Shown: one piece after another, positions 4,635-50,228 of the stretch
Position numbering within the stretch: the stretch's first letter is position 1
Layout: the number at the start of each line of letters is the position of its first letter
The notes under the pieces: generated by a model
The model's input: only the letters and a program-made list of their open reading frames with translations
Databases searched by the model: none
Told to the model about the DNA's origin: nothing
Made by a program: the position numbers and the translations under genes
From: Kordiimonas marina
GTDB taxonomy: Bacteria > Pseudomonadota > Alphaproteobacteria > Sphingomonadales > Kordiimonadaceae
Direction: 5' to 3'
Length of the DNA: 64,000 nucleotides
Assembly: GCF_023006325.1 (NCBI RefSeq)
Contig: NZ_JAINDF010000001.1
Coordinates: 116,863-180,862, forward strand

Positions 4635-5384
4635 ATGACCATCATCAACAAGGCTTATGGCCTGACCTGCTATCTGCTCGGCATCCTGTCCTTGCTGCTG
4701 TTCATCGCTTTCGCCGCCAACCTCTTTGGCGCGCTCGGCCTGACCTCGATCCAGAGCCTGGATATCGACCAGCTCAATTCAGCCCCGGCAGATAACCCGC
4801 TCCTTGTCGATATCGGTCTTCTCGCCCTCTTTGGCCTGCAGCACACCATTATGGCGCGGCCGGGCTTCAAAGCCATATGGACGAAACTCGTGCCCGCGCA
4901 TCTGGAGCGCAGCACCTATGTGCTCCTCTCCGCCGTTGTGCTGTACATCCTGGTGGTCAACTGGCAGCCGGTCGCAGGCTCAGTCTGGCACCTTGAAAAC
5001 TCGGCCGCGCGCTGGGTGCTGCATATCCTCTATGCCGCAGGCTGGATCATCAGCTTCCAGGCGAGCCAGCAGATCAACCCGAGCTACCTGATGGGCCTGC
5101 GCCAGTCCTTCTCGGGTGACGCGGTCGACCACCGCAAGCAGTTCAAGACGCCGGTCTTTTACCAGTATGTGCGCCACCCCATTCAGGCCGGTGTGGTGCT
5201 TTCACTGGTCGCCACGCCTGACATGACGGTTGGCCGCTTCGTCCTGGCCGCCGGGATGATTGTCTATGTCATCATCGCGCTCAAATTCGAGGAACGCGAC
5301 CTGATCGCCGAGTTCGGCGATACCTACCGCGACTATAAAAAGCGCGTCCCCGCGCTGATCCCCTGGAAAGGCCGTATGGCATGA
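4635..5384 (+). CDS. Membrane methyltransferase, MddA-like (possible methanethiol S-methyltransferase)
   Basis: This 249-residue integral membrane protein has about five hydrophobic segments and the C-terminal signature of the isoprenylcysteine-methyltransferase/NnrU superfamily (VRHPIQAGV, then EERDLIAEFGDTYRDYKKRVP). Several blocks recall MddA, which methylates methanethiol to dimethyl sulfide: LFGLQHTIMARPGFK (about 66-80), ERSTYVLLS (about 92-100) and ATPDMTVG. The RHP motif differs from the usual RHPLYLG, so the substrate is uncertain. It stands alone between a divergent methyltransferase and a hypothetical gene. Confidence 0.6.
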   Translation: MTIINKAYGLTCYLLGILSLLLFIAFAANLFGALGLTSIQSLDIDQLNSAPADNPLLVDIGLLALFGLQHTIMARPGFKAIWTKLVPAHLERSTYVLLSAVVLYILVVNWQPVAGSVWHLENSAARWVLHILYAAGWIISFQASQQINPSYLMGLRQSFSGDAVDHRKQFKTPVFYQYVRHPIQAGVVLSLVATPDMTVGRFVLAAGMIVYVIIALKFEERDLIAEFGDTYRDYKKRVPALIPWKGRMA

Positions 5385-5512
5385 GGCGGGGCAAAAGCGC
5401 GCGCCCGTAAAAGCAATTTGACGTAGCCTGAATATATCACCGGTTTACTGGTTTCGCGTAGCCCTCTATCCTATGCTCTTTGTATGGCAACAATTTAATT
5501 GGGGCTTACAGG

Positions 5513-7093
5513 ATGAAATCGGTTTTTCTGTTTGTGGCCTGTACCCTTGGCCTTGCTGCCGCGGGTGGCTTTGGCTATTCCAGTTATCGTTTTGAAACGG
5601 ACGTCCGCACGGCGGTCAACAAATTCAATAGCGATCCTGAAAACAAACTGCAGCTTACAAGTAGAGCCTTCAGCACCAACCTATGGTCGAAGTCTGTGTC
5701 CATGATGGACGTTCAGCTTATTGACAAGGCAAGCCATGCCATCGTGATCAAGGCCAAGAACGCGAGCGTTGAAGTTAGCCGGCAGGAAGGCAAAATCTTG
5801 TCGCTTGGCCATGCCATGCTTGAGGGGCTAAGCATCAGCACCAACGCCGGTGATTATTCTTTCAGTCGCCTCGGTTTCGACAGCCTCAACCTAGTCGGGG
5901 CAGACCTGCTCGGCGTTTTTCTTGCATCAACCGACACCACACTCACGCGCGCGGCGCCAGTGAGCATCGCAGTAACGGGGTTGACTGGAACCTTGGGCCG
6001 AAACAATCCAATTCGGTTCAAGGCAAAAACCTATCGGACCGACATCAGTGCCAACGGCAAACGGCTCGACCAACTTCTCATTGACAACCTGATGATCGAT
6101 GCTCCGTCGCAGCAATTCTGGCTTTCTCTTGGCCATATTCAGATTAACGGCGGCGATATAAACCTATTGAGCAATATTGCCCGGGCGGCCAGTCAGCAAC
6201 CACACACACACCACGGAGTACCGAACAAGAAACGATCCCTGCCCGAAGATATAGCTGTGGCTGCTGTCAAGTATTTCGGCGTTGATACTATTGCCTTCCT
6301 CGACCTCAGGGCGACGCTACCACGCAACGTTATCGTTAGTGTAGAGGCTATGAAACTGGGCAATTTCGAGCACCGTGCCGGCATCATAGTCGGGCTCAAG
6401 CTGACGCTTAAAGACCTTCAAATTGAAAACCTGACCCAGGCCTCGCCGTTGCTGAGGCATACTCCTTTCAACACGCTTAACATGAATATGCAGGCCGAAA
6501 GCCATTATGATGCCCAAGCCAGGCGCCAGGAAAGCCTTAGCGACATCACGCTTGGGGGCCTTGTGAGAGTACGTTCCCGCTTTGCCCTGAGCGAGGTTGA
6601 CCTCGATAAAATGGCCCGCACAGTCATCTCCTTTGAACGAAACCAGATTGACGCCTTCTTGGGTGAGAGCAAGAAACCCACTGCCCCGAAAGCAGTGTTG
6701 GCTGAGATGATAAACACCTTAGCCCAAACCTACAGCGGGTATTATTCTGGCGTCGAGGGTACGATTGACGTTACAGACCGCGGACTGGCGCAAAGTTATC
6801 TCGAGTTTCTCGCTGGCATCGTCAACCAAAACCCTGAGGAATTGAGACCTATGGCAGCCATGGCGGCGCTGTTAAGCTTCACCAGCATTTTTGGCGACAC
6901 TATGCCAGACAACCTGTCCGACGCGCTTAAGGCCTATTTCGCCGCCCCCTCGCAGAGTCTGCGTTTTAAGATGCGCAACAAAGACATTATCACCGCCGAA
7001 GCGCTTAAAGGCTTGACCCTGGACAACTGGCAGCAACTGATTTCCATTGAGGTTGACGCTCCACCGACAGGCTCCGACACAGACAACCGCTAA
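5513..7093 (+). CDS. Hypothetical exported or membrane-anchored protein, DUF945-like
   Basis: The 526-residue product starts with a hydrophobic signal-like helix (MKSVFLFVACTLGLAAAGG), followed by a long soluble part, probably periplasmic and anchored in the inner membrane. The early region (LQLTSRAFSTNLWSKSV) and overall plan recall the YdgA/DUF945 family, but this is a weak match by eye. The start is the ATG at 5513; the frame is open back to a TTG at 5480. Third codon positions are richer in A and T than in neighbouring genes (many AAC, ATT, CTT and ACA codons), which may mean relaxed selection or transfer. Function unknown. Confidence 0.7.
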   Translation: MKSVFLFVACTLGLAAAGGFGYSSYRFETDVRTAVNKFNSDPENKLQLTSRAFSTNLWSKSVSMMDVQLIDKASHAIVIKAKNASVEVSRQEGKILSLGHAMLEGLSISTNAGDYSFSRLGFDSLNLVGADLLGVFLASTDTTLTRAAPVSIAVTGLTGTLGRNNPIRFKAKTYRTDISANGKRLDQLLIDNLMIDAPSQQFWLSLGHIQINGGDINLLSNIARAASQQPHTHHGVPNKKRSLPEDIAVAAVKYFGVDTIAFLDLRATLPRNVIVSVEAMKLGNFEHRAGIIVGLKLTLKDLQIENLTQASPLLRHTPFNTLNMNMQAESHYDAQARRQESLSDITLGGLVRVRSRFALSEVDLDKMARTVISFERNQIDAFLGESKKPTAPKAVLAEMINTLAQTYSGYYSGVEGTIDVTDRGLAQSYLEFLAGIVNQNPEELRPMAAMAALLSFTSIFGDTMPDNLSDALKAYFAAPSQSLRFKMRNKDIITAEALKGLTLDNWQQLISIEVDAPPTGSDTDNR

Positions 7094-7189
7094 ACCGGCC
7101 GCCCATCCTGCCGAATGCCACACTTCGCACCTCCCCTTGGCGCACGTCCCGATCCGTGGCATTCTGATGGCCTATGACGGGAGGGACGT

Positions 7190-8503
7190 ATGCAAGGTAA
7201 TGGTTCCAGTACCCTGAATGTGGCGATCATCGGCGCGGGCCCCGCAGGCTATTACACCGCCGAAGCGCTAACCACGGCAGACGAATGTGTCCATGTGGAC
7301 ATTATCGACCGGCTGCCGACGCCTTTTGGGCTGATCAGGGCCGGTGTCGCGCCCGACCACCAGAGCATCAAGAATGTTTCCCGCCGCTATGAGGCGACCA
7401 ACTGCCGCTCGAACGTCCGCTTCGTCGGCAACCTGTCGCTTGGGCGGGATATCACGCTGGCGGAACTCGGCACGCTTTATGACGCCGTGGTGCTGGCAAC
7501 CGGCGCCGCGAAGGACAGGCCGCTCGGCATCGAGGGCGAAGATTTGCCCGGCGTCATCGGCTCCGGCCCCTTCGTCGGCTGGTACAACAGCCACCCGGAC
7601 TATAAGGACCTGAACCCCGACCTTCAGGTTGCCTCCGTCGCGGTCATCGGCAACGGCAATGTGGCGGTCGATGTCGCCCGCGTGCTCGCGAAAACGGCGG
7701 AAGAGATGGCGGGCTCCGACCTCGCCAGCCACGCCGCCCGGCCGATCCATGGCTCGGCAATCCGCGACATCCACATCCTTGGCCGCCGTGGGCCGCTGGA
7801 GGCCAGCTTCACGCCCAAGGAACTGGGCGAGCTGAATATCCTCGATAACTGCGTCGCGCTCGTCGACCCGGCCCAGTTGCCGGATGAAAGCCTCGACGAG
7901 ACGCTGTCGGGCGCGGCCAAGAAAAACATGGCGATCCTGCGCGCCATGGCCAAGAACAAGCCGGGGGACAAACCGGTGCGCCTGCACCTCATGTTCTATG
8001 TCCGGCCGATGGCGGTTTTGGGGGAGGAACGCGTCTGCGGCCTGAGGCTTGAGAAAACCCGAGTGGAAGACGGCGCCTGCGTCGGCACAGGCGAAACCGA
8101 GGTGCTGCCTGTCGGCCTCGTGGTGCCCTGCATCGGCTACCGCACCAGCCCGATCGCCGATGTGCCCTATAACCAGCGCTACGGCTGTTTCGAAAACGAA
8201 GGCGGCAAAATCCGCGACGGGCTTTACTGCGTCGGCTGGGCCAAGCGCGGGCCTTCCGGCACCATCGGCACCAACAAGCCGGACGGCAGCGAAGTGGCCG
8301 ACCGCATCCTCGCGGAAATCCGCCCCAAGGGCACAAAAGGCCGCGCCGGGCTTGAGGAAATCGTCGCGGAACGCGGTCTCCATATCGTCACCTTCCAGGA
8401 CTGGAAGAAGATCGAAGCCGCGGAAGTCGCCGCCGCGTCAGGCCCCGCCCCGCGGCAGAAGTTCGCCGATGTGGCTGAGATGGTCAGGCTCGCGGAAAGC
8501 TGA
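7190..8503 (+). CDS. Ferredoxin/adrenodoxin-NADP reductase (FAD-dependent)
   Basis: This 437-residue flavoprotein is of the adrenodoxin-reductase/FprA type and moves electrons between NADPH and a ferredoxin in the cytosol. It has an N-terminal FAD motif GAGPAGYYTAEAL (about 16-28) and the family block RLPTPFGLIRAGVAPDH. NADP binding is shown by IGNGNVAVDVARVL and GRRGPLEASFTPKEL, and the C-terminal FAD block is GWAKRGPSGTIGTNK. The ATG at 7190 follows GGGAGG. No ferredoxin or P450 gene lies next to it. It converges on the thioesterase gene with a 4-bp gap. Confidence 0.92.
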   Translation: MQGNGSSTLNVAIIGAGPAGYYTAEALTTADECVHVDIIDRLPTPFGLIRAGVAPDHQSIKNVSRRYEATNCRSNVRFVGNLSLGRDITLAELGTLYDAVVLATGAAKDRPLGIEGEDLPGVIGSGPFVGWYNSHPDYKDLNPDLQVASVAVIGNGNVAVDVARVLAKTAEEMAGSDLASHAARPIHGSAIRDIHILGRRGPLEASFTPKELGELNILDNCVALVDPAQLPDESLDETLSGAAKKNMAILRAMAKNKPGDKPVRLHLMFYVRPMAVLGEERVCGLRLEKTRVEDGACVGTGETEVLPVGLVVPCIGYRTSPIADVPYNQRYGCFENEGGKIRDGLYCVGWAKRGPSGTIGTNKPDGSEVADRILAEIRPKGTKGRAGLEEIVAERGLHIVTFQDWKKIEAAEVAAASGPAPRQKFADVAEMVRLAES

Positions 8504-8507
8504 GCGC

Positions 8508-8927
8508 TCAGCCGCGTACCCGCTTCAGGATACCGCTGAAGGTCAGGATCGTGCGGTCAGCGGAAAAGATCGTGCCGCGCACAAAGAGGAGCGACCGGGT
8601 CGCCCGGACGACCTCACCCACCGCTTCAATCATTTCGCCTTCCATCCCTGCCGAGACGAATTCGCTGTTGAAGCCCACGGTCACGCAGCGGCCTTCCAGC
8701 TCCTTCTTGGCGATGGAGAACAGCGCATAATCGGCGAAGCTCATCAACAGCCCGCCATGAAGCGCGCCTGAGGTATTGCAGTGGCGCTTTTCCGAGATGA
8801 AAGCCGACCGGTACGTGCCGTCGCCATTATCCTTGTGATAAAAAGGGCCGATCAGGTTTTCAAAAGGGTCTTCATCCCCCCAAAGGCCGTAACCTTGCGC
8901 GATGAGGTCTTCGGTCGTCAGTGCCAT
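8508..8927 (-). CDS. PaaI-type hotdog-fold thioesterase
   Basis: The 139-residue protein has the hotdog thioesterase pattern: NTSGALHGGLLMSFADYALF (about 48-67) with the HGG turn over the central helix, then VGFNSEFVS. Such enzymes hydrolyse acyl-CoA esters; the substrate cannot be told. I chose the ATG at 8927, which follows the stop codon of the Asp-box gene by 13 bases and has AGGA upstream. The open frame continues back into that gene. It is the last gene of a minus-strand group with the Asp-box and TIGR00266 genes. Confidence 0.85.
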   Translation of the reverse strand: MALTTEDLIAQGYGLWGDEDPFENLIGPFYHKDNGDGTYRSAFISEKRHCNTSGALHGGLLMSFADYALFSIAKKELEGRCVTVGFNSEFVSAGMEGEMIEAVGEVVRATRSLLFVRGTIFSADRTILTFSGILKRVRG

Positions 8928-8940
8928 AAAACTGTATTTC

Positions 8941-10083
8941 CTACTCGAGTTCCAGAAGCGAGCCTTCGATCCCGCGAATGCCCCGTTTGTCTGCAATATA
9001 GGTGGCGATCAGGATTCGTCCATCCTCAAGTTGGACGGCGGAGGGATAACCCGTATCGCGGCTGGGGCTGTCAGACCGGATGACGATCTCCTCCGCGTTC
9101 TCTATGGCCTGTCCCGGCTCGACAAGCCGTGCCCGCACGCCCATGGGCGCGTGGCGGTAGCCGTAAACAAGCAGCAGACGCCCGTCCGGCAGCACCAGGG
9201 GGTCATACGGGTGGCCTTTTATCGGCACGGTTACAGGCGGGTCGAAACAGGCACCTGCATCATAGGATGTCGCGATGACGAGCCTGTCATCATGGCCATG
9301 GGTCCGGTGAAAAACCGTCATGCCGCCTTCAGGCCAGCGCGCGAGCGCAGGTTCCTGCAAATCTACCCCGGGCATGGCGACAATAGGCCCTGCAGGCTGC
9401 CAGCTTTCCCCGCCATCCAGCGATTTCACCAGCCGGGTGACCTGGTTCTCATGCCCTTCTATCCCGCCCATATAACGCGACAGCAACAGCGTTCCGTCGT
9501 CCAGCTCCACCATGCGGCCCCGGACAGGCCCGGCAAGATGTTCAGCCGGCCATTTGGACGGGCCATGGTCGGGGTCGACGGGCAGGCGTCGGTAATCGCT
9601 CCAGGTTTTACCCTCATCGTCGCTCAGGCGCACATAGGAGCCCCAGTAAACGTAGCGGGCTTCGCCGCCGTCCCAGCGAGAGACAAAGGCCGGGCGGTCA
9701 GTGACCTTCCCGGCAACCGCCCCCGTAACCGGATACCACAGGAAACTATATTGGATCAGACGACCCGAGCGGGTCACGAACAGGTTGCCGTCCTGGTCAG
9801 CCGCTTCCGGATGCATGGGCATGGTGACGGCGTCGCCCAAGGGCTGCAGGTCCGGCCCGAACCGCCGGAGCGCGATATGGGATTTCGGGTGCACATGATC
9901 GACCGAATTAAAATCGGCGTCGGCGGTACCCTTTAAAAGCCAGCGATGGTCCGGCGCCCGGCGGAAGGCCAGGAGAATATCACCCGACGGCAGCGCGGCA
10001 AGCGCGGGAAAGGCGGAGAAATACCGCTCAGACCGGTACATCACCACCGGGTCGCTGATACGCATGGCCATGGCCTTTCCCAT
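8941..10083 (-). CDS. Sialidase-like Asp-box (BNR repeat) protein
   Basis: A 380-residue beta-propeller-type protein with Asp-box motifs SDDEGKTW, SLDGGESW and the looser SYDAGACF, as in exo-alpha-sialidase-like proteins. No signal peptide is visible, so it appears cytosolic, unlike most secreted sialidases. I do not see enough of the sialidase arginine triad to assign an activity. Starts at 10083, 10071 and 10065 are all possible; 10083 lies 6 bp from the stop of the upstream TIGR00266 gene. The tight spacing suggests an operon with that gene and the thioesterase. Confidence 0.75.
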   Translation of the reverse strand: MGKAMAMRISDPVVMYRSERYFSAFPALAALPSGDILLAFRRAPDHRWLLKGTADADFNSVDHVHPKSHIALRRFGPDLQPLGDAVTMPMHPEAADQDGNLFVTRSGRLIQYSFLWYPVTGAVAGKVTDRPAFVSRWDGGEARYVYWGSYVRLSDDEGKTWSDYRRLPVDPDHGPSKWPAEHLAGPVRGRMVELDDGTLLLSRYMGGIEGHENQVTRLVKSLDGGESWQPAGPIVAMPGVDLQEPALARWPEGGMTVFHRTHGHDDRLVIATSYDAGACFDPPVTVPIKGHPYDPLVLPDGRLLLVYGYRHAPMGVRARLVEPGQAIENAEEIVIRSDSPSRDTGYPSAVQLEDGRILIATYIADKRGIRGIEGSLLELE

Positions 10084-10089
10084 CCCGCC

Positions 10090-10938
10090 CTAGAAGCTGT
10101 TGTCGCCGTCCAGCACGCGGCCGATCCCGCCGAGGACCGAGCCTTCACCCCGATGGCCGCCGTGCTGGGGCATTGAGGCATGGATGCGGCCCGCAAGGCG
10201 GCTGAACGGCAGGCTTTGGAGCCATACCTTACCCGGCCCGGTAAGCCGCGCGAAGAACACGCCTTCGCCGCCGAAGATCATCGACTTGATGCCGCCAACT
10301 TTCTCGATATCCATATCGACATCGGCGGTCATCGCCGCCAGGCAGCCCGTGTCTACATGCAGCACTTCACCCGGCTTCAGCTCGCGCTCCACCACCGTAC
10401 CGCCGACATGGACGAACACCCAGCCGTCGCCGTCGAGCCGTTCCATGATGAAGCCTTCACCGCCAAACAGGCCGGTCATGACCTTCTTCTGGAAATGGAT
10501 CCCCACCTGCACACCGCGCGCGGCGGCCAGGAACGCGTCCTTCTGGCAGATGAGCCTGCCGCCCATGTCGCTGAGCTTCAGCGCCAGGATGGTGCCGGGA
10601 TAAGGCGCCGCGAACGCGACCCGCGCCTTGCCGTGGCCTTCGTGGGTGAAAACGGTGGTGAACAGGCTTTCGCCGGTCAGAAGCCTTTTGCCCGCGCCCA
10701 GAAGCTTGCCCATGAAGCCGCCTTCCTGGCCGGAGCCGTCCCCGAACACGGCGTTCATGGTGATGACCGAGTCCTTGAACATCATGGCGCCGGCTTCGGA
10801 GATGGCGGATTCGCCGGGGTCAAGCTCGACCTCGACAAACTGCATCTCATGGCCCTTGATTTCATAATCGACATCATCGGCCACGCCTTCACGGCGGGCA
10901 TGGCGGCTGATCGGCACGTTCGGAACATGGGCAGGCAT
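10090..10938 (-). CDS. TIGR00266/AIM24-family protein
   Basis: The 282-residue protein belongs to the AIM24/TIGR00266 family, a double-stranded beta-helix fold of poorly known function. Visible features are YEIKGHEMQFVEVELDPGES near the N-terminus (a typical opening), SEAGAMMF, GGEGFIMERLDGDGWVFVH and VDTGCLAAMTADV. The ATG at 10938 has a clear GGAG 6 bases upstream, so I prefer it to the longer open frame. It heads the minus-strand group with the Asp-box protein and thioesterase and diverges from sppA. The C-terminal tail is glycine- and histidine-rich. Confidence 0.85.
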   Translation of the reverse strand: MPAHVPNVPISRHARREGVADDVDYEIKGHEMQFVEVELDPGESAISEAGAMMFKDSVITMNAVFGDGSGQEGGFMGKLLGAGKRLLTGESLFTTVFTHEGHGKARVAFAAPYPGTILALKLSDMGGRLICQKDAFLAAARGVQVGIHFQKKVMTGLFGGEGFIMERLDGDGWVFVHVGGTVVERELKPGEVLHVDTGCLAAMTADVDMDIEKVGGIKSMIFGGEGVFFARLTGPGKVWLQSLPFSRLAGRIHASMPQHGGHRGEGSVLGGIGRVLDGDNSF

Positions 10939-41026: not shown

Positions 41027-41929
41027 ATGAGCAATCTTTCCAATCTGCCAACTCTGTCGCCTGAGGGCAGCCTCAGTTCGTACCTGCAGGAAATCCGCAA
41101 GTTTCCGATGCTGGGTGCCGATGAGGAATATATGCTCGCCAAGGCCTGGACCGAGCATGGCGACCGCGAAGCCGCGCACAAGATGGTGACGAGCCACCTG
41201 CGCCTTGTCGCCAAGATCGCCATGGGCTACCGCGGCTACGGCCTGCCGGTGGCGGACCTTATCTCCGAAGGCAACGTCGGCATGATGCAGGCGGTCAAGC
41301 GCTTCGACCCTGAAAAAGGCTTCCGCCTGGCCACCTACGCCATGTGGTGGATCCGCGCCGCGATCCAGGAATATATCTTGCGCAGCTGGTCGCTGGTGAA
41401 AATCGGCACCACGGCGGCGCAGAAGAAACTTTTCTTCAACCTCCGCCGCGTGAAGGGCCAGATCGAAGCGATCGAGGAAGGCGACCTGACGCCTGAGAAT
41501 GTCGCCAAAATCGCCGAGCAGCTGGACGTGCCCGAAAGCGATGTCATCAGCATGAACCGCCGCATGACCGCGATGGATCATTCCCTCAATGCGCCTCTCC
41601 GCGCCGACGCCGAAGGCGAATGGCAGGACTGGCTGATCGACGAAAACCCGGACGCGGAAACCCAGGTTGCCGAGAATGAGGAACGGGACCAGCGGATGGA
41701 ACTGCTGTCCGAGGCGATGGCAGACCTCAACGAGCGCGAGAAGCATATCCTGACCGAACGCCGGCTCAAGGAACCTGCAACAACCCTTGAGGAACTGTCG
41801 CAGCAATATGGCGTCAGCCGCGAACGCGTACGCCAGATCGAAGTGCGGGCGTTTGAAAAGGTCCAGAAAGCCATGCGTCAGAAAGCGCAGGAAACAGGTC
41901 TCGGCAATCCGGATAAGTCATCCGACTGA
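41027..41929 (+). CDS. rpoH: RNA polymerase heat-shock sigma factor (sigma-32)
   Basis: A 300-residue sigma-70 family member. Region 2 reads LRLVAKIAMGYRGYGLPVADLISEGNVGMM and RLATYAMWWIRAAIQEYILRSW. It is identified as RpoH by the RpoH box QKKLFFNLRR (about 127-136). Region 4 has ILTERRL and a helix-turn-helix TLEELSQQYGVSRERVRQIE. It directs heat-shock transcription. GAGG lies before the ATG at 41027. A terminator follows directly. Confidence 0.97.
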   Translation: MSNLSNLPTLSPEGSLSSYLQEIRKFPMLGADEEYMLAKAWTEHGDREAAHKMVTSHLRLVAKIAMGYRGYGLPVADLISEGNVGMMQAVKRFDPEKGFRLATYAMWWIRAAIQEYILRSWSLVKIGTTAAQKKLFFNLRRVKGQIEAIEEGDLTPENVAKIAEQLDVPESDVISMNRRMTAMDHSLNAPLRADAEGEWQDWLIDENPDAETQVAENEERDQRMELLSEAMADLNEREKHILTERRLKEPATTLEELSQQYGVSRERVRQIEVRAFEKVQKAMRQKAQETGLGNPDKSSD

Positions 41930-41965: not shown

Positions 41966-41993
41966 CAAAAGCCGGGCAATGACCCGGCTTTTT
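41966..41993. terminator. Terminator after rpoH (bidirectional)
   Basis: AGCCGGG (41970-41976) pairs with CCCGGCT (41983-41989) around CAATGA, followed by TTTT on the plus strand and by TTTTGTTTTT on the minus strand. It can also end the convergent membrane-protein transcript. Confidence 0.88.
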
Positions 41994-42011: not shown

Positions 42012-42557
42012 TCACTGCGGGCGTTTGGGGGTTTTGTTGGCCCAGTCTGGCTCATCGCCACTCGGTGCCGCCCCCAGCACTTCCGGCCCCCAGGCTTCAA
42101 CCAGCGTTGTCCGCTGTTGCGACAATGTCTTGAGCCGTTCCTGCGCCAGGCTTTGCAGCACCACAGCGGCCACCATCGGCCCGACATAAATCAGCGCATA
42201 GCCAATCGCCGCCGAGCCAAACATGATCACGACCACCAAGGGATCGATCACGGTTTGCATAAGCTCCCGCGGGTGGTCCCACACCTGCCGAACAAAGGGC
42301 AGCACACCAGCGATATTGGCAAAGGCCACACATTGCAGTTTGTAGTTTTTATGCTCGCCCCGGCCCGTGATCCCCAGCACGAAGGTGGGGAGCAGGCCAA
42401 TCAGCAACAGCCCCGCAACCGCCAGCTTGAACATCGAAATACCGATAAGGCCGACCACGACCAGGGGGGCGAGGCCGCCGATTTCGCTCGTCGGTTTCCG
42501 CCGACGGCGCTGGCGCATCGGGGCTTTTTTCGGCTGCTGTTGTGGTTTCTTGGCCAT
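42012..42557 (-). CDS. Small membrane protein paired with the pseudokinase
   Basis: A 181-residue protein with a very basic N-terminus (MAKKPQQQPKKAPMRQRRRRK). Two hydrophobic segments follow around 27-63 and another long one around 107-137. The C-terminal tail is soluble with a coiled-coil-like helix (VLQSLAQERLKTLSQQRTTL). No family recognised. It starts 4 bp after the stop codon of the predicted pseudokinase, so the two are almost certainly cotranscribed and may form a complex in the inner membrane. Confidence 0.75.
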   Translation of the reverse strand: MAKKPQQQPKKAPMRQRRRRKPTSEIGGLAPLVVVGLIGISMFKLAVAGLLLIGLLPTFVLGITGRGEHKNYKLQCVAFANIAGVLPFVRQVWDHPRELMQTVIDPLVVVIMFGSAAIGYALIYVGPMVAAVVLQSLAQERLKTLSQQRTTLVEAWGPEVLGAAPSGDEPDWANKTPKRPQ

Positions 42558-42561
42558 GATC

Positions 42562-44589
42562 TTATCCCGGGAACATCGTCAGGAACCCGACGAGCACCAT
42601 AACTACAAAGGCAAGTGTCCGGCTACCTTTGATTCCCTTCAACCTGGCTTCAGGGTCTGTCGGCAGGATTTTACGGTTAAGACGGGCACGCTCCCGCTCG
42701 ATCCGGTGGATAAGGTTGCGGGCCTGGCCGAATTCGCGCGCGTCCTCCGCCTGCACCTGCAGCATATTGACGTCCGAGGTCAGCCGGGTGATATCCCCGC
42801 CCTTCTTGATCTTGTCGAGCTGCTGCTGCACCGTCTCCCGGCGCTTCTTGTTCTTCAGTCCCTTGACCACAGGCCCAAGGCTATCGACCAGCTTCTCGGT
42901 CAGGTGGGGCAGCGCACCCATCTTGAAGCGGCGCTGGAGCAGCCCGAAAAACTCGGCCGACAGGCTGGCAAACCGGCCCGGGTCGTTCTGGGCCGCCGCC
43001 AGTTTATTGAAATCACGGCTGAGATCCGGCCCGTGGGTATTGCAATAAGCCGCAACATGACGGTCCAGAAGGATATTGCGGCCGCCCCCGGACGCCGACA
43101 AACGGTCAAGCGCATTCATCAACTGCTTGATCGACCCAATCCAGACATTGTCGAACCGCGGGCTGATACAGGGCAGGATCGGGTTCATTTCATAGAGCAC
43201 CCGCTCCATCCCGCGGCCGAGAGATTTGCTGGTCCCGTGATGGAACAGCCGCTTGAAGTCCTGCAGCCGCTGGGCAAACCCCGGGTCCCTGGGGCCGCAG
43301 ATTTCGGTCAGCGCGCTCATGAATTTCTGGTCCATCATGTCGGTAATGACGGCGAGCAAATCCCGGTCATCCCGGGCGAAGGCATCAGCAATCATCGACC
43401 CCATGCCATCCAGGAACATGGAATGGCCCCTGAAATGGACCGGCCCTGTGGGATGCAAGAACATGCAAACCCGCGAGACCATTTTGTAATCGTCGGCCCG
43501 CGCGCCGGAAAAGCCTTCCGCCGGGCGGACATCGATCACCGCCTCAAGACGTTCCGTCAGGATTTCATCCCGGAACGACAATTGCGCCCAGGATGGAAAA
43601 TCGAGCTTTTTCAGGAAGCTGGCCGCTTCCCGCGGTTCCCGTGCGAACGCATCCGCGAGCAGGCGCCTGTCCACATAGGCCACGCCCTTGAAATTGGTCG
43701 GCCGGTTCATTGTCCAGGCCTTGAGGCTGGTGCGCTTGGGCTTGCCGACACCATCGAACCAATCGAGCACGTCCTCCGCACCCCAGCGTTCATCGGGTTC
43801 ATCAGCCATCATGCCTTTGATCAGCGACCCAAGCGCGCCCGGAATATCGCGCCCGCCCGAAAGCGCCCAATAGGACCCCTGGTTGATCCGCGCCATGACC
43901 ATGGCGTCGCGTTTGCGGCCTTGCCACAGTTGTTCCCCGAAATACAGGCACTGAAGCGCGACACCGAACTGATAGAAATCGCTATCCATGCTGCCTGCGC
44001 CGCGCGCCGTATCGTCAGCGAGCGCAAGGTCGAGCGCCTCCAGTGCGAATGGCTGGCGGAAGCCGGGCGGCGTGCTGTAACACTCCCCAATCCAGACCTC
44101 GTCCCCATCCTTGGTGGCGAAATACATGTTACTGGGCTTCAGGTTCCGGTGGAAAATGCCGCGCTTATGCAGCGCGGCCAACGCCTTTAGGACAGAAAGC
44201 ACCACATGCTGTCTGAGGCGGTTGGTATTGACCCTCGGGTTGACCTTGCCGTCAGGCCCCATCAGTGGGCCGCCCACCGGCCGCTCGAATATGGTAACCA
44301 GCCGCTGCTTGCGGCCATTCTTGTCTATCGACATCAGGCCCCGGTCGACCGGATTGACCATATTGGGGATCGGCCGCCCCTTGATGCTGCGGTAGACATC
44401 ATTGCGCAAGGGAACAAGCGGATTGTGAACGAGCGCATAAAGCTCACGGCCAGGCTCTTGCTGGTCGTTGACCTTGAAGGCTTCGCCACCGGCCGTGCTG
44501 AACTCCGGCAGCGGCGACGCAGTCATGACCACGTACCGTTCGCCGAAGGCGCTCTGACCGGGTGGGACGGGTGCAGACTCCCCGCTCAC
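42562..44589 (-). CDS. Predicted membrane-anchored Ser/Thr pseudokinase
   Basis: A 675-residue protein. Residues about 20-280 look like a protein-kinase fold: a degenerate N-lobe, GIFHRNLKPSNMYF (144-157) at the catalytic loop, DSDFYQFGVALQCLYFGEQLW (helix F), and DERWGAEDVLDWF near the end. The catalytic aspartate of HRD is Asn149, the DFG motif is replaced by GEC (168-170), and no VAIK lysine is evident, so it is probably catalytically dead. The middle is a novel alpha-helical region; 570-645 may be coiled coil; the C-terminus is one membrane segment (about 656-673). GTG start with GGGGGA 5 bases upstream. Confidence 0.72.
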   Translation of the reverse strand: MSGESAPVPPGQSAFGERYVVMTASPLPEFSTAGGEAFKVNDQQEPGRELYALVHNPLVPLRNDVYRSIKGRPIPNMVNPVDRGLMSIDKNGRKQRLVTIFERPVGGPLMGPDGKVNPRVNTNRLRQHVVLSVLKALAALHKRGIFHRNLKPSNMYFATKDGDEVWIGECYSTPPGFRQPFALEALDLALADDTARGAGSMDSDFYQFGVALQCLYFGEQLWQGRKRDAMVMARINQGSYWALSGGRDIPGALGSLIKGMMADEPDERWGAEDVLDWFDGVGKPKRTSLKAWTMNRPTNFKGVAYVDRRLLADAFAREPREAASFLKKLDFPSWAQLSFRDEILTERLEAVIDVRPAEGFSGARADDYKMVSRVCMFLHPTGPVHFRGHSMFLDGMGSMIADAFARDDRDLLAVITDMMDQKFMSALTEICGPRDPGFAQRLQDFKRLFHHGTSKSLGRGMERVLYEMNPILPCISPRFDNVWIGSIKQLMNALDRLSASGGGRNILLDRHVAAYCNTHGPDLSRDFNKLAAAQNDPGRFASLSAEFFGLLQRRFKMGALPHLTEKLVDSLGPVVKGLKNKKRRETVQQQLDKIKKGGDITRLTSDVNMLQVQAEDAREFGQARNLIHRIERERARLNRKILPTDPEARLKGIKGSRTLAFVVMVLVGFLTMFPG

Positions 44590-44716
44590 AATGTTCCCCC
44601 TTTAAGACCTATGTACACCACTATGGTTACATTCCTGTCCACGTGCGTATGACAGTCTTACTCTATTTTGTTAACAAATGTGAATCATAGCGTTTCAAAA
44701 TGCAAATTATTACAAA

Positions 44717-44752
44717 AAAAACGCCGCAACTCTCATGAGTTAGCGGCGTTTT
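44717..44752 (-). terminator. Terminator of the ser-his-pur operon
   Basis: Read on the minus strand, AAAACGCCGC.AACTC pairs with GAGTT.GCGGCGTTTT and is followed by a run of T (A tract at 44714-44720). It lies 38 bp past the purA stop. A second 7-bp-arm stem (44766-44784, AAGGCTA/TAGCCTT) sits between the stop and this hairpin. Confidence 0.9.
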
Positions 44753-44789: not shown

Positions 44790-46082
44790 CTAGTCCTGGA
44801 ACGGATCGCGGACCAGAATGGTATCGTCACGCTCCGGGCTGGTGGACAGAAGCGCCACCGGAACGCCGATCAGCTCTTCGATCCGGCGGATATATTTCAC
44901 CGCGGTCGCCGGCAGATCGGCCCAGCTACGGGCACCGAAAGTGCTTTCCTGCCAGCCTTCGAGGGTTTCGTAGACCGGCTCGATCGCGGCCTGGTCTTCC
45001 ATGCCGTAAGGCAGATAGTCGATGACTTCGCCTTTGTGCTTGTAGCCGACACAGACCTTCAGTTCGTCCATGCCGTCAAGCACGTCCAGTTTCGTGAGCG
45101 CGATACCGTCGACACCGCCGATGGTCAGGCTTTGGCGAACCAGCACGGCGTCGAACCAGCCACAACGGCGCGAACGACCGGTGACGGTACCAAATTCGTG
45201 GCCCTTCTCACCCAGATACTGACCGACTTCATTGTCCTGCTCGCTCGGGAACGGGCCTGACCCCACACGCGTGGTGTAGGCCTTGGTGATGCCGAGCACA
45301 TAATCCAGCGCCCGCGGCCCCATGCCCGACCCGCCAGCCGCCTGGCCTGCGACTGTGTTGGAGCTGGTCACAAACGGATAGGTGCCATGGTCAATGTCCA
45401 GAAGCGAGCCTTGCGCGCCTTCAAACAGGATTTTCTTACCGCTTTTCTGCGCGTCATCCAGCGTGCGCCAGACATTGTGCATATAGGGCAGGATCTGGGG
45501 CGCCAGCGTCATCAGCTCGTCGGCGATGACCTTGCCGTCCACTTCCGGCTGACCGAGGCCACGGCGCACGGCATTATGGTGCGTCAGCGCGACTTCAAGA
45601 CGGGCTTCAATGGTTTCGCGGGACTGCAGGTCGCACACGCGGATCGCGCGGCGGCCAACCTTGTCCTCATACGCCGGGCCGATACCGCGGCGGGTGGTAC
45701 CGATCTTGACGCCCTTGGTCGCGTCTTCGCGCAGGGCATCCAGTTCACGGTGGTAGGGCATGATGAGCGTAGCGTTTGCAGCGATCTGCAACGTCTCGGA
45801 CGTGATGTCCACGCCCTGGTCGCGCAGCTTGTCCATTTCGGACAAGAGCGCCCACGGATCAACGACGACGCCGTTGCCGATCACGCTGATCTTGCCGCCG
45901 CGCACAACGCCGGACGGCATCAGGGACAGCTTATAGACCTTACCGTCAACCACCAGCGTATGACCGGCGTTATGGCCACCCTGAAAACGCACGACCACAT
46001 CGGCGCGTTCGGAAAGCCAGTCAACGATTTTGCCCTTGCCTTCGTCGCCCCATTGCGAGCCGACAACAACGACATTGCCCAT
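44790..46082 (-). CDS. purA: Adenylosuccinate synthetase
   Basis: PurA joins IMP and aspartate with GTP to make adenylosuccinate, on the way to AMP. The 430-residue protein has the signature [15 protein letters not shown] (about 6-20), [41 protein letters not shown] and [11 protein letters not shown]. It is the last gene of serC-serA-hisZ-purA, 39 bp after hisZ, and is followed by a clear terminator. The linkage joins serine, histidine and purine metabolism in one transcript. Confidence 0.98.
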
Positions 46083-48970: not shown

Positions 48971-50128
48971 TCAGGCCAGTTCGGCCTTCACGGTCCGGTA
49001 AGCCCAGTCAAGCCAGCCGGTCAGCGCCGACAGGTCCTCGGCTTCGACCGTGGCGCCGCACCAGATACGGAGGCCCGCAGGCGCGTCGCGGTAGCCGCCG
49101 ATGTCGTAGGCGACACCTTCAGCATCGAGAAGCGCGGCCAGCTTTTTCGGCACGGCGGCCTGGGCGTCGGCATCGAGTGTGGCGAACCACGGGTCGACAA
49201 CCTTCAGGCACACGGACGTGTTCGAGCGCGAGGCCTTGTCTTCGGCGAGGAAACCGGCCCAGTCGGTCACGGCCACCCAATCCTCCAGCACGCGGAGGTT
49301 GGCTTCCGATTTAGCGATCAGGCCATCGAGCCCGCCAAGGCCTTCAGCCCAATTCAGCGCATCGATATAATCCTCGACGCACAGCATGGACGGCGTGTTG
49401 ATGGTTTCGCCGACGAAGATGCCTTCGATCAGCTTGCCGCCTTTGGTCAGGCGGAAGATTTTGGGGAGCGGCCACGCGGGTGTATAGCTTTCCAGGCGCT
49501 CAACGGCACGCGGGGACAGGATCAGCATGCCGTGCGCAGCTTCACCGCCCAGAACTTTCTGCCAGCTGTAGGTGACAACATCGAGCTTGTGCCACGGCAG
49601 GTCCATGGCGAACGCAGCCGAGGTGGCGTCACAGATGGTGAGGCCTTCGCGGTCGTCCGCAATCCAGTCGGCGTTCGGGACCTTGACGCCCGAGGTGGTG
49701 CCGTTCCAGGTGAAGACGACGTCGCGGTCGGTATCGACAGCATTGAGGTCCGGCAGCTCGCCATAGTCGGCGGTCAGCGTGCGCACGTCTTCGAGCTTCA
49801 GTTGCTTGACCACGTCGGTGACCCAGCCAGCGCCAAAGCTTTCCCAGGCGAGCATATCGACGCCGCGCTGGCCGAGAAGCGACCAAAGCGCCATCTCAAC
49901 CGCGCCAGTGTCGGACGCAGCCACGATACCGATGCGATAATCGGCCGGAATCTTCAGAATTTCACGGGTTTTATCAATCGCTTCTTTGAGCTTGGCTTTG
50001 CCAGGCTTCGAGCGGTGAGAACGGCCAACAAGGGCATTCTCGAGAGCGTCCACGGCCCAACCGGGACGCTTGGCACACGGGCCGGAGCTAAATTCCGGAC
50101 GCCGCGGTGCGGTAGCAGGCTTCGTCAT
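48971..50128 (-). CDS. serC: Phosphoserine aminotransferase
   Basis: SerC is a PLP enzyme that makes 3-phosphoserine from phosphohydroxypyruvate and glutamate; it also serves pyridoxine synthesis. The 385-residue protein is of the long alphaproteobacterial type: [16 protein letters not shown] at the start, [33 protein letters not shown] and the PLP-lysine block [15 protein letters not shown]. The ATG at 50128 has AAGG 7 bases upstream inside a small stem. It heads the operon behind a structured leader. Confidence 0.96.
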
Positions 50129-50228
50129 ATCCTATCCTTCCAGATAGCTAGCGCCTCGTTGGGGAGGCGTGTCCCAATGTGTGTGCCGACCTCTCAGACG
50201 ACTGCTTCCCAGTTGGGGGAAGTACCGG
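50129..50228 (-). ncRNA. serC RNA motif leader (candidate cis-regulatory RNA)
   Basis: The roughly 100-nt leader of serC can fold into several stems. One is CGCCTC/GAGGCG (50152-50169, loop CCCAAC on the transcript). Another is CTATC/GATAG (50132-50147), which holds the ribosome binding site GGAAGG in its loop and arm. Upstream there are CCCAA and TTGGG segments able to pair over a longer range. A serC motif upstream of serC-serA is known from alphaproteobacteria; position and layout fit, but I cannot run a covariance model. Confidence 0.65.

Follow-up and report, generated by a model that had tools for sequence, protein, structure and literature searches.

A membrane-anchored predicted pseudokinase and its small membrane partner form a conserved gene pair of Alphaproteobacteria

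Introduction

What does a protein do that has the outline of a protein kinase and none of its three catalytic residues, and whose gene is directly followed by that of a small membrane protein? This question is raised by a locus of Kordiimonas marina, located in a 64-kb stretch of DNA that was analysed as a whole (the window). A first-pass annotation had interpreted the two genes as a membrane-anchored pseudokinase (PK) and a dedicated partner (MB), which would form a signalling or scaffold complex at the inner membrane rather than a phosphorylating enzyme.

Pseudokinases are defined by a conserved fold that lacks at least one of its three catalytic residues (PMC12599244). Seven bacterial families have been reviewed, namely ActPs1, ActPs2, ActPs3, DLHK, GLW, CP1 and DYD; most of the named families come from Actinobacteria, and the function has been worked out for very few (PMC12599244). 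Our literature search for an alphaproteobacterial pseudokinase returned nothing relevant.

Results

An open reading frame check of the window found both genes exactly where the first-pass annotation had placed them, between rpoH and purA, with MB downstream of PK at a spacing of 4 bp (Table 1). The distance from the end of purA to PK is 200 bp, and a terminator hairpin in between separates purA from the two genes. Since a second hairpin follows MB, PK and MB look like an independent two-gene unit. Both genes are under purifying selection: compared with the nearest relative, dN and dS are about 0.12 and 1.0 for PK, and about 0.36 and 1.2 for MB. The PK relatives of Kordiimonas and Eilatimonas show 50–64% identity across the whole protein, and a single-protein scan of named genomes found five Kordiimonadales loci with PK.

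Table 1. Features of the locus and of the surrounding window, in window coordinates.
Feature	Position	Strand	Description and evidence
PK, pseudokinase gene	42562..44589	(-)	675 aa, GTG start at 44589; open reading frame and sequence
GGGGG upstream of PK	44596-44600		precedes the GTG start
Kinase-like domain of PK	43735..44547	(-)	residues about 15-285; 112-sequence alignment, PDB profile match, secondary structure of the models
Helical region of PK	42655..43732	(-)	residues about 286-645, about 360 residues
MB, partner gene	42012..42557	(-)	181 aa; open reading frame, hydrophobicity, co-occurrence with PK
purA	44790-46082	(-)	flank upstream of PK
Intrinsic terminator hairpin after purA	44718..44752	(-)	-21.6 kcal/mol, z -5.7; a U run follows
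Terminator hairpin after MB	41967..41992	(-)	between MB and convergent rpoH
rpoH	41027-41929	(+)	convergent flank beyond MB
serC leader (RF00517)	50127-50179	(-)	66.5 bits; known alphaproteobacterial element

Is the N-terminal part of PK a kinase domain? The protein matched the Pfam family Pkinase (PF00069) with an E-value of 2.6e-10 and 40.6 bits (cut-off 31.7), most strongly over residues 122–158, and 27 of 30 homologues matched at E ≤ 1. Many members of the family are overlooked by this Pfam model. A profile built from the 30 homologues found kinases of the PDB with an E-value of 4.6e-11 over profile positions 102–315. These sequence matches are strong evidence, and the kinase assignment is above chance. 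The structure models were built from only six sequences and are accordingly of low confidence (mean pLDDT of 48 for the whole protein and 45 for the kinase part alone). They begin with N-lobe strands interrupted by one helix and continue with a long helix, a set of three short strands and, in the C-lobe, four helices, which is the order of elements in kinases. In a Foldseek search with the second of these models, all 50 matches listed were kinases or a pseudokinase (E-values from 7e-7 to 9e-5), and they superposed poorly overall. This structural result agrees with a kinase fold and falls short of proof, and none of our claims rests on the models alone. Taken together, the profile matches and the order of elements, the latter at low model confidence, place PK in the PF00069 superfamily as far as the fold is concerned, as the first-pass annotation had supposed.

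We then counted the residues at the catalytic sites in an alignment of 112 PK homologues. In PK itself, V54 occupies the position of the beta-3 lysine, H147-R148-N149 that of the HRD motif and G168-E169-C170 that of the DFG motif, exactly the substitutions described at first (Asn for the HRD aspartate, GEC for DFG, no VAIK lysine). These losses are family-wide. The beta-3 lysine is kept in a single homologue, with V, I or L at position 54 in 109/112, the HRD aspartate in none (A in 37, S in 34, N in 12, others in the rest) and the DFG aspartate in one, where G is found in 108/112 and the motif mostly reads GEC or GDC. Remnants of the motifs are still recognizable: the HRD histidine is present in 107 and the arginine in 94 of the 112 sequences, and an acidic residue directly follows the lost DFG aspartate in 104. 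The first-pass annotation had cited K151 and N154 as signs of a preserved kinase plan. Of these, N154 stands as a family trait (90/112) and K151 does not, position 151 being arginine in 68 homologues and lysine in 4.

The structural residues of the C-lobe are retained in at least 98% of the homologues, including the APE glutamate E184 (110/112), D204 and G209 of helix F (111/112 each) and R268 of the pair R268-W269 (111/112). The activation segment from G168 to E184 has exactly 17 residues in every one of the 112 homologues; that of PKA has 25. A phenylalanine or tyrosine takes the C-spine position under the adenine (L173 in PKA numbering) in 106/112. The loss of all three catalytic residues together with an aromatic residue at the adenine-pocket position argues against ATP chemistry by PK. 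On these alignment data, there is good support for the earlier prediction that PK is no phosphorylating enzyme, and the family falls under the definition of a pseudokinase, i.e. at least one catalytic residue is missing and the fold is conserved. No homologue with intact HRD and DFG motifs was found from which PK could differ by an error, and a sequencing error or a pseudogene is ruled out by the 112 homologues and the low dN/dS.

At three loci (L027 in G014, L047 in G031 and L155 in G140) the PK gene falls into two frames that overlap or are interrupted by a stop, owing to either assembly error or decay. A distant relative outside Alphaproteobacteria, about 900 residues long, has retained ILKF, HRDIKPGN and ADFG and shows the same C-lobe signature, D....RW.......W, as PK. 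Given that the lysine, HRD and DFG coexist with this signature in the relative, the catalytic loss in the PK family is most simply derived.

The kinase-like domain is followed by the helical region, in which no Pfam family was found at a meaningful score in residues 286–645 of 30 members. Its sequence is divergent around a small set of nearly invariant residues: Y466, C474 and D616 are present in 112/112 homologues, S476, D509 and H511 in 110/112, and Q552, G460 and G598 in 109/112. A single hydrophobic segment at about residues 652–673 would then form a C-terminal transmembrane anchor, in line with the domain order first annotated. The description of the next gene product as a small basic membrane protein likewise held: MB has a basic N-terminus, hydrophobic stretches at about 22–67 and 100–139, and a C-terminal tail with an invariant tryptophan (W156) followed by a glycine. 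In 30 sequences, M1, P57, N81, P127 and W156 are invariant. Profile searches yielded no family assignment for MB; a similarity to Pam17 (best E-value 0.015, in 3 of 30 members) was taken as chance.

Is the pair an oddity of one genome? The whole-protein PK family was found only in Alphaproteobacteria, in about a third of the sampled ones (100/289 genomes), and it is single-copy in most genomes carrying it. Outside this class, the whole-protein family was not found and only the kinase part was matched, in ordinary-looking kinases, and the viral contigs searched contained no PK relative. Being conserved across about a third of the sampled alphaproteobacterial species, PK–MB is an old, working and undescribed protein pair and not the peculiarity of a single genome.

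At the common site, the genes are arranged as hisZ-purA-PK-MB with rpoH and rluD convergent, and hisZ-purA-(PK-MB)-rpoH is the ancestral site. In 60 of 83 loci the pair has purA or rpoH as a neighbour; this is a lower bound, as some cases go unseen at contig ends or because gene calling was crude. A named Azospirillum replicon has the same gene order, with PK annotated as 'serine/threonine protein kinase' and MB as 'hypothetical protein'; the kinase name recurs at a second Azospirillum PK site without purA. Locus L151 of Azospirillum thermophilum, on NZ_CP029356.1, comprises a phosphoserine transaminase gene, hisZ, purA, PK–MB and rpoH. With these genes on board, the replicon has the appearance of a second chromosome, although it is listed as a plasmid.

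How tight is the link between the two genes? In the first survey of relatives, MB adjoins PK at every full locus, and in the wider survey it is adjacent at nearly all loci, mostly within 60 bp. Genome by genome, the pairing is obligate: full-length PK occurs in 100 of the 289 alphaproteobacterial genomes and MB in 99, all of them inside those 100 (99/100 vs 0/189 others), and the hundredth (G096, locus L183) has a weaker MB beside PK (E-value 5.7e-16). The tandem duplications at L130 and L139 copy PK and MB as whole pairs. The two genes are also co-inherited. Their evolutionary distances correlate with r = 0.88, and with a partial r of 0.73 given PurA that was reached in 0 of 499 permutations. 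The evolution of PK and MB is thus correlated beyond shared ancestry, and the conserved gene linkage implied by the first-pass annotation is borne out.

Departures from strict adjacency are few in kind. In G244 and G314, MB and PK are on different contigs, and at L120, L129 and L157 a second copy of PK has no MB. At locus L168 of G244 (4742–10669), PK has no MB alongside; its neighbours are a PP-loop (tilS-like) gene on one side and a DUF3141 gene on the other. Two genomes of one genus (G070 and G184, L174–L179) contain three extra MB copies each without adjacent PK.

Discussion

Based on the family-wide loss of the catalytic residues and the obligate pairing, we propose that PK is probably a non-catalytic, membrane-anchored scaffold in an obligate two-protein inner-membrane complex with MB. 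PK would be a cytoplasmic pseudokinase that is anchored in the membrane by its C-terminus and has kept its C-lobe framework, while MB, as a putative multi-span membrane protein, would anchor or assemble it. Most likely, the pair would bring another factor to the membrane by scaffolding, without catalysis, in a working mode that may be likened to that of EssB/YukC in type VII secretion. A link of this factor to motility or cell-envelope machines is our leading guess, and a weak one. With respect to the scaffold complex proposed at first, the conserved pairing stands; physical binding of PK and MB, their membrane topology and the scaffolding mode are what we infer. Overall, the observation of the first-pass annotation is confirmed and its interpretation supported.

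Does PK belong to a system already described? EssB/YukC, like PK, is a membrane-anchored cytoplasmic pseudokinase with three degraded motifs and a shortened activation loop that acts as a non-catalytic scaffold (PMC12599244). It belongs, however, to Firmicutes with type VII secretion, whereas PK is alphaproteobacterial, lies among hisZ, purA, rpoH and rluD without such neighbours and has no YukC-family Pfam match. PK further differs in having an additional helical region of 360 residues, its anchor at the very C-terminal end and a membrane partner of its own. It stands outside that family, although the working mode may be similar. In ActPs2/ActPs3 (MviN), too, a transmembrane segment comes after the pseudokinase domain; Asn replaces the HRD aspartate in ActPs2, and bulky aromatic residues fill the ATP site of MviN (PMC12599244). 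These families are actinobacterial, unlike PK, and ActPs2 has Arg at the beta-3 lysine and a 250-residue insertion in the activation loop, in contrast to the aliphatic residue (mostly Val or Ile) and the invariant 17-residue segment that set PK apart from it.

The GLW family shares with PK its proteobacterial origin, a hydrophobic residue for the beta-3 lysine and a C-terminal transmembrane region (PMC12599244). There, GLW replaces HRD, whereas the PK family has kept the histidine and arginine, mostly has Ala, Ser or Asn as the third residue, and is thereby separate from GLW. DLHK retains the HRD aspartate and has no transmembrane region, the reverse of PK on both counts. Indeed, the PK motifs match those reported for none of the seven reviewed families (PMC12599244), from which the PK family is set apart by these motifs; a 42-family kinase atlas may already label it. 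Canonical Hanks kinases, including MAD6 and PD-T4-6, show significant local similarity to PK in the catalytic loop and C-lobe, but the active residues are lost in PK, which lies in core-genome synteny without defence context. The MAD6 profile scored 41 bits against PK (cut-off 460), and the PADLOC matches were local and confined to the kinase domain. A defence-system kinase of the MAD6/PD-T4-6 kind is ruled out by this merely local similarity and the core synteny.

Could the scaffold serve one machine in particular? That PK–MB is specifically a membrane adaptor for the flagellum is possible, if on the unlikely side. FlhA is found in 93/100 PK genomes and in 85/189 others, an odds ratio of 16 (3.4 for the control phaC) that ignores phylogeny and genome reduction, and in G172 (L139, 238–9892) two tandem PK–MB pairs are immediately followed by flhA (FHIPEP), a gene of the MotA/ExbB family and one for a sigma-54 activator. 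Seven PK genomes without FlhA show, on the other hand, that the pair is not strictly flagellar, and most loci adjoin purA and rpoH instead of flagellar genes. We take the association of PK with flagellated genomes as a lead only. Co-occurrence with FlhF was uninformative, as SRP-family paralogues match in 288/289 genomes.

The invariant Cys, Asp, His, Tyr and Gln of the helical region speak against the scaffold reading in that a hidden active or metal site could account for them as well. PK could then be a non-canonical enzyme, in which either the kinase-like domain, as in SelO and SidJ, or the helical region, e.g. via C474, D509 and H511, catalyses another reaction. The persistence of these residues, of Y466 and of D616 in an otherwise divergent region, as well as that of N154 and of the acidic residue after the lost DFG aspartate, would favour this reading, which we nevertheless consider unlikely. 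SelO and SidJ resemble PK as kinase folds without the HRD aspartate, but they are enzymes whose tabulated motifs keep the VAIK-type lysine and the DFG-type aspartate, and the glutamylase activity of SidJ uses the retained ATP- and metal-binding residues (PMC12599244). The PK family keeps neither the lysine nor the aspartate, it has the aromatic residue at the C-spine position, and its helical region matches no Pfam enzyme family. Quite unlikely in our view is a class-wide membrane machine that unites both ideas, with the pseudokinase domain docking a client and the helical region holding a new active or metal site (C474, D509 and H511 together with Y466, Q552 and D616).

Pseudokinases frequently control partner kinases allosterically (PMC12599244), and PK could accordingly be the allosteric regulator or the substrate decoy of a canonical Hanks kinase whose gene lies elsewhere. 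Such a role is very improbable, since the window's own genome contains no PF00069 protein besides PK and a canonical PF00069 kinase is absent from 9/15 near-complete genomes of the same genus; for the window's genome it is largely refuted, as far as PF00069 detects kinases. The pair is thus maintained independently of canonical Hanks kinases. We give as little credit to a local regulator of the neighbouring rpoH, e.g. a membrane adaptor for RpoH turnover. At many loci rpoH is indeed the convergent neighbour of PK–MB, but little can be concluded from the order of genes where synteny is old. The pair also occurs at loci without rpoH (L139, L142, L143 and L168), and it is absent from most sampled alphaproteobacteria. 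Finally, the active serine/threonine protein kinase that RefSeq names for the Azospirillum copies is almost certainly a misnomer, the database names being contradicted by the family-wide loss of all three catalytic motifs.

In summary, we consider PK–MB to be probably a scaffold pair, whose nature has been hidden by annotation, both by the kinase name in databases and by the many members missed by the Pfam model. Genomes in which we detect no canonical Hanks kinase have retained the pair as well. PK thereby offers a clean case of a kinase fold that appears to be used structurally, with no kinase pathway surrounding it.
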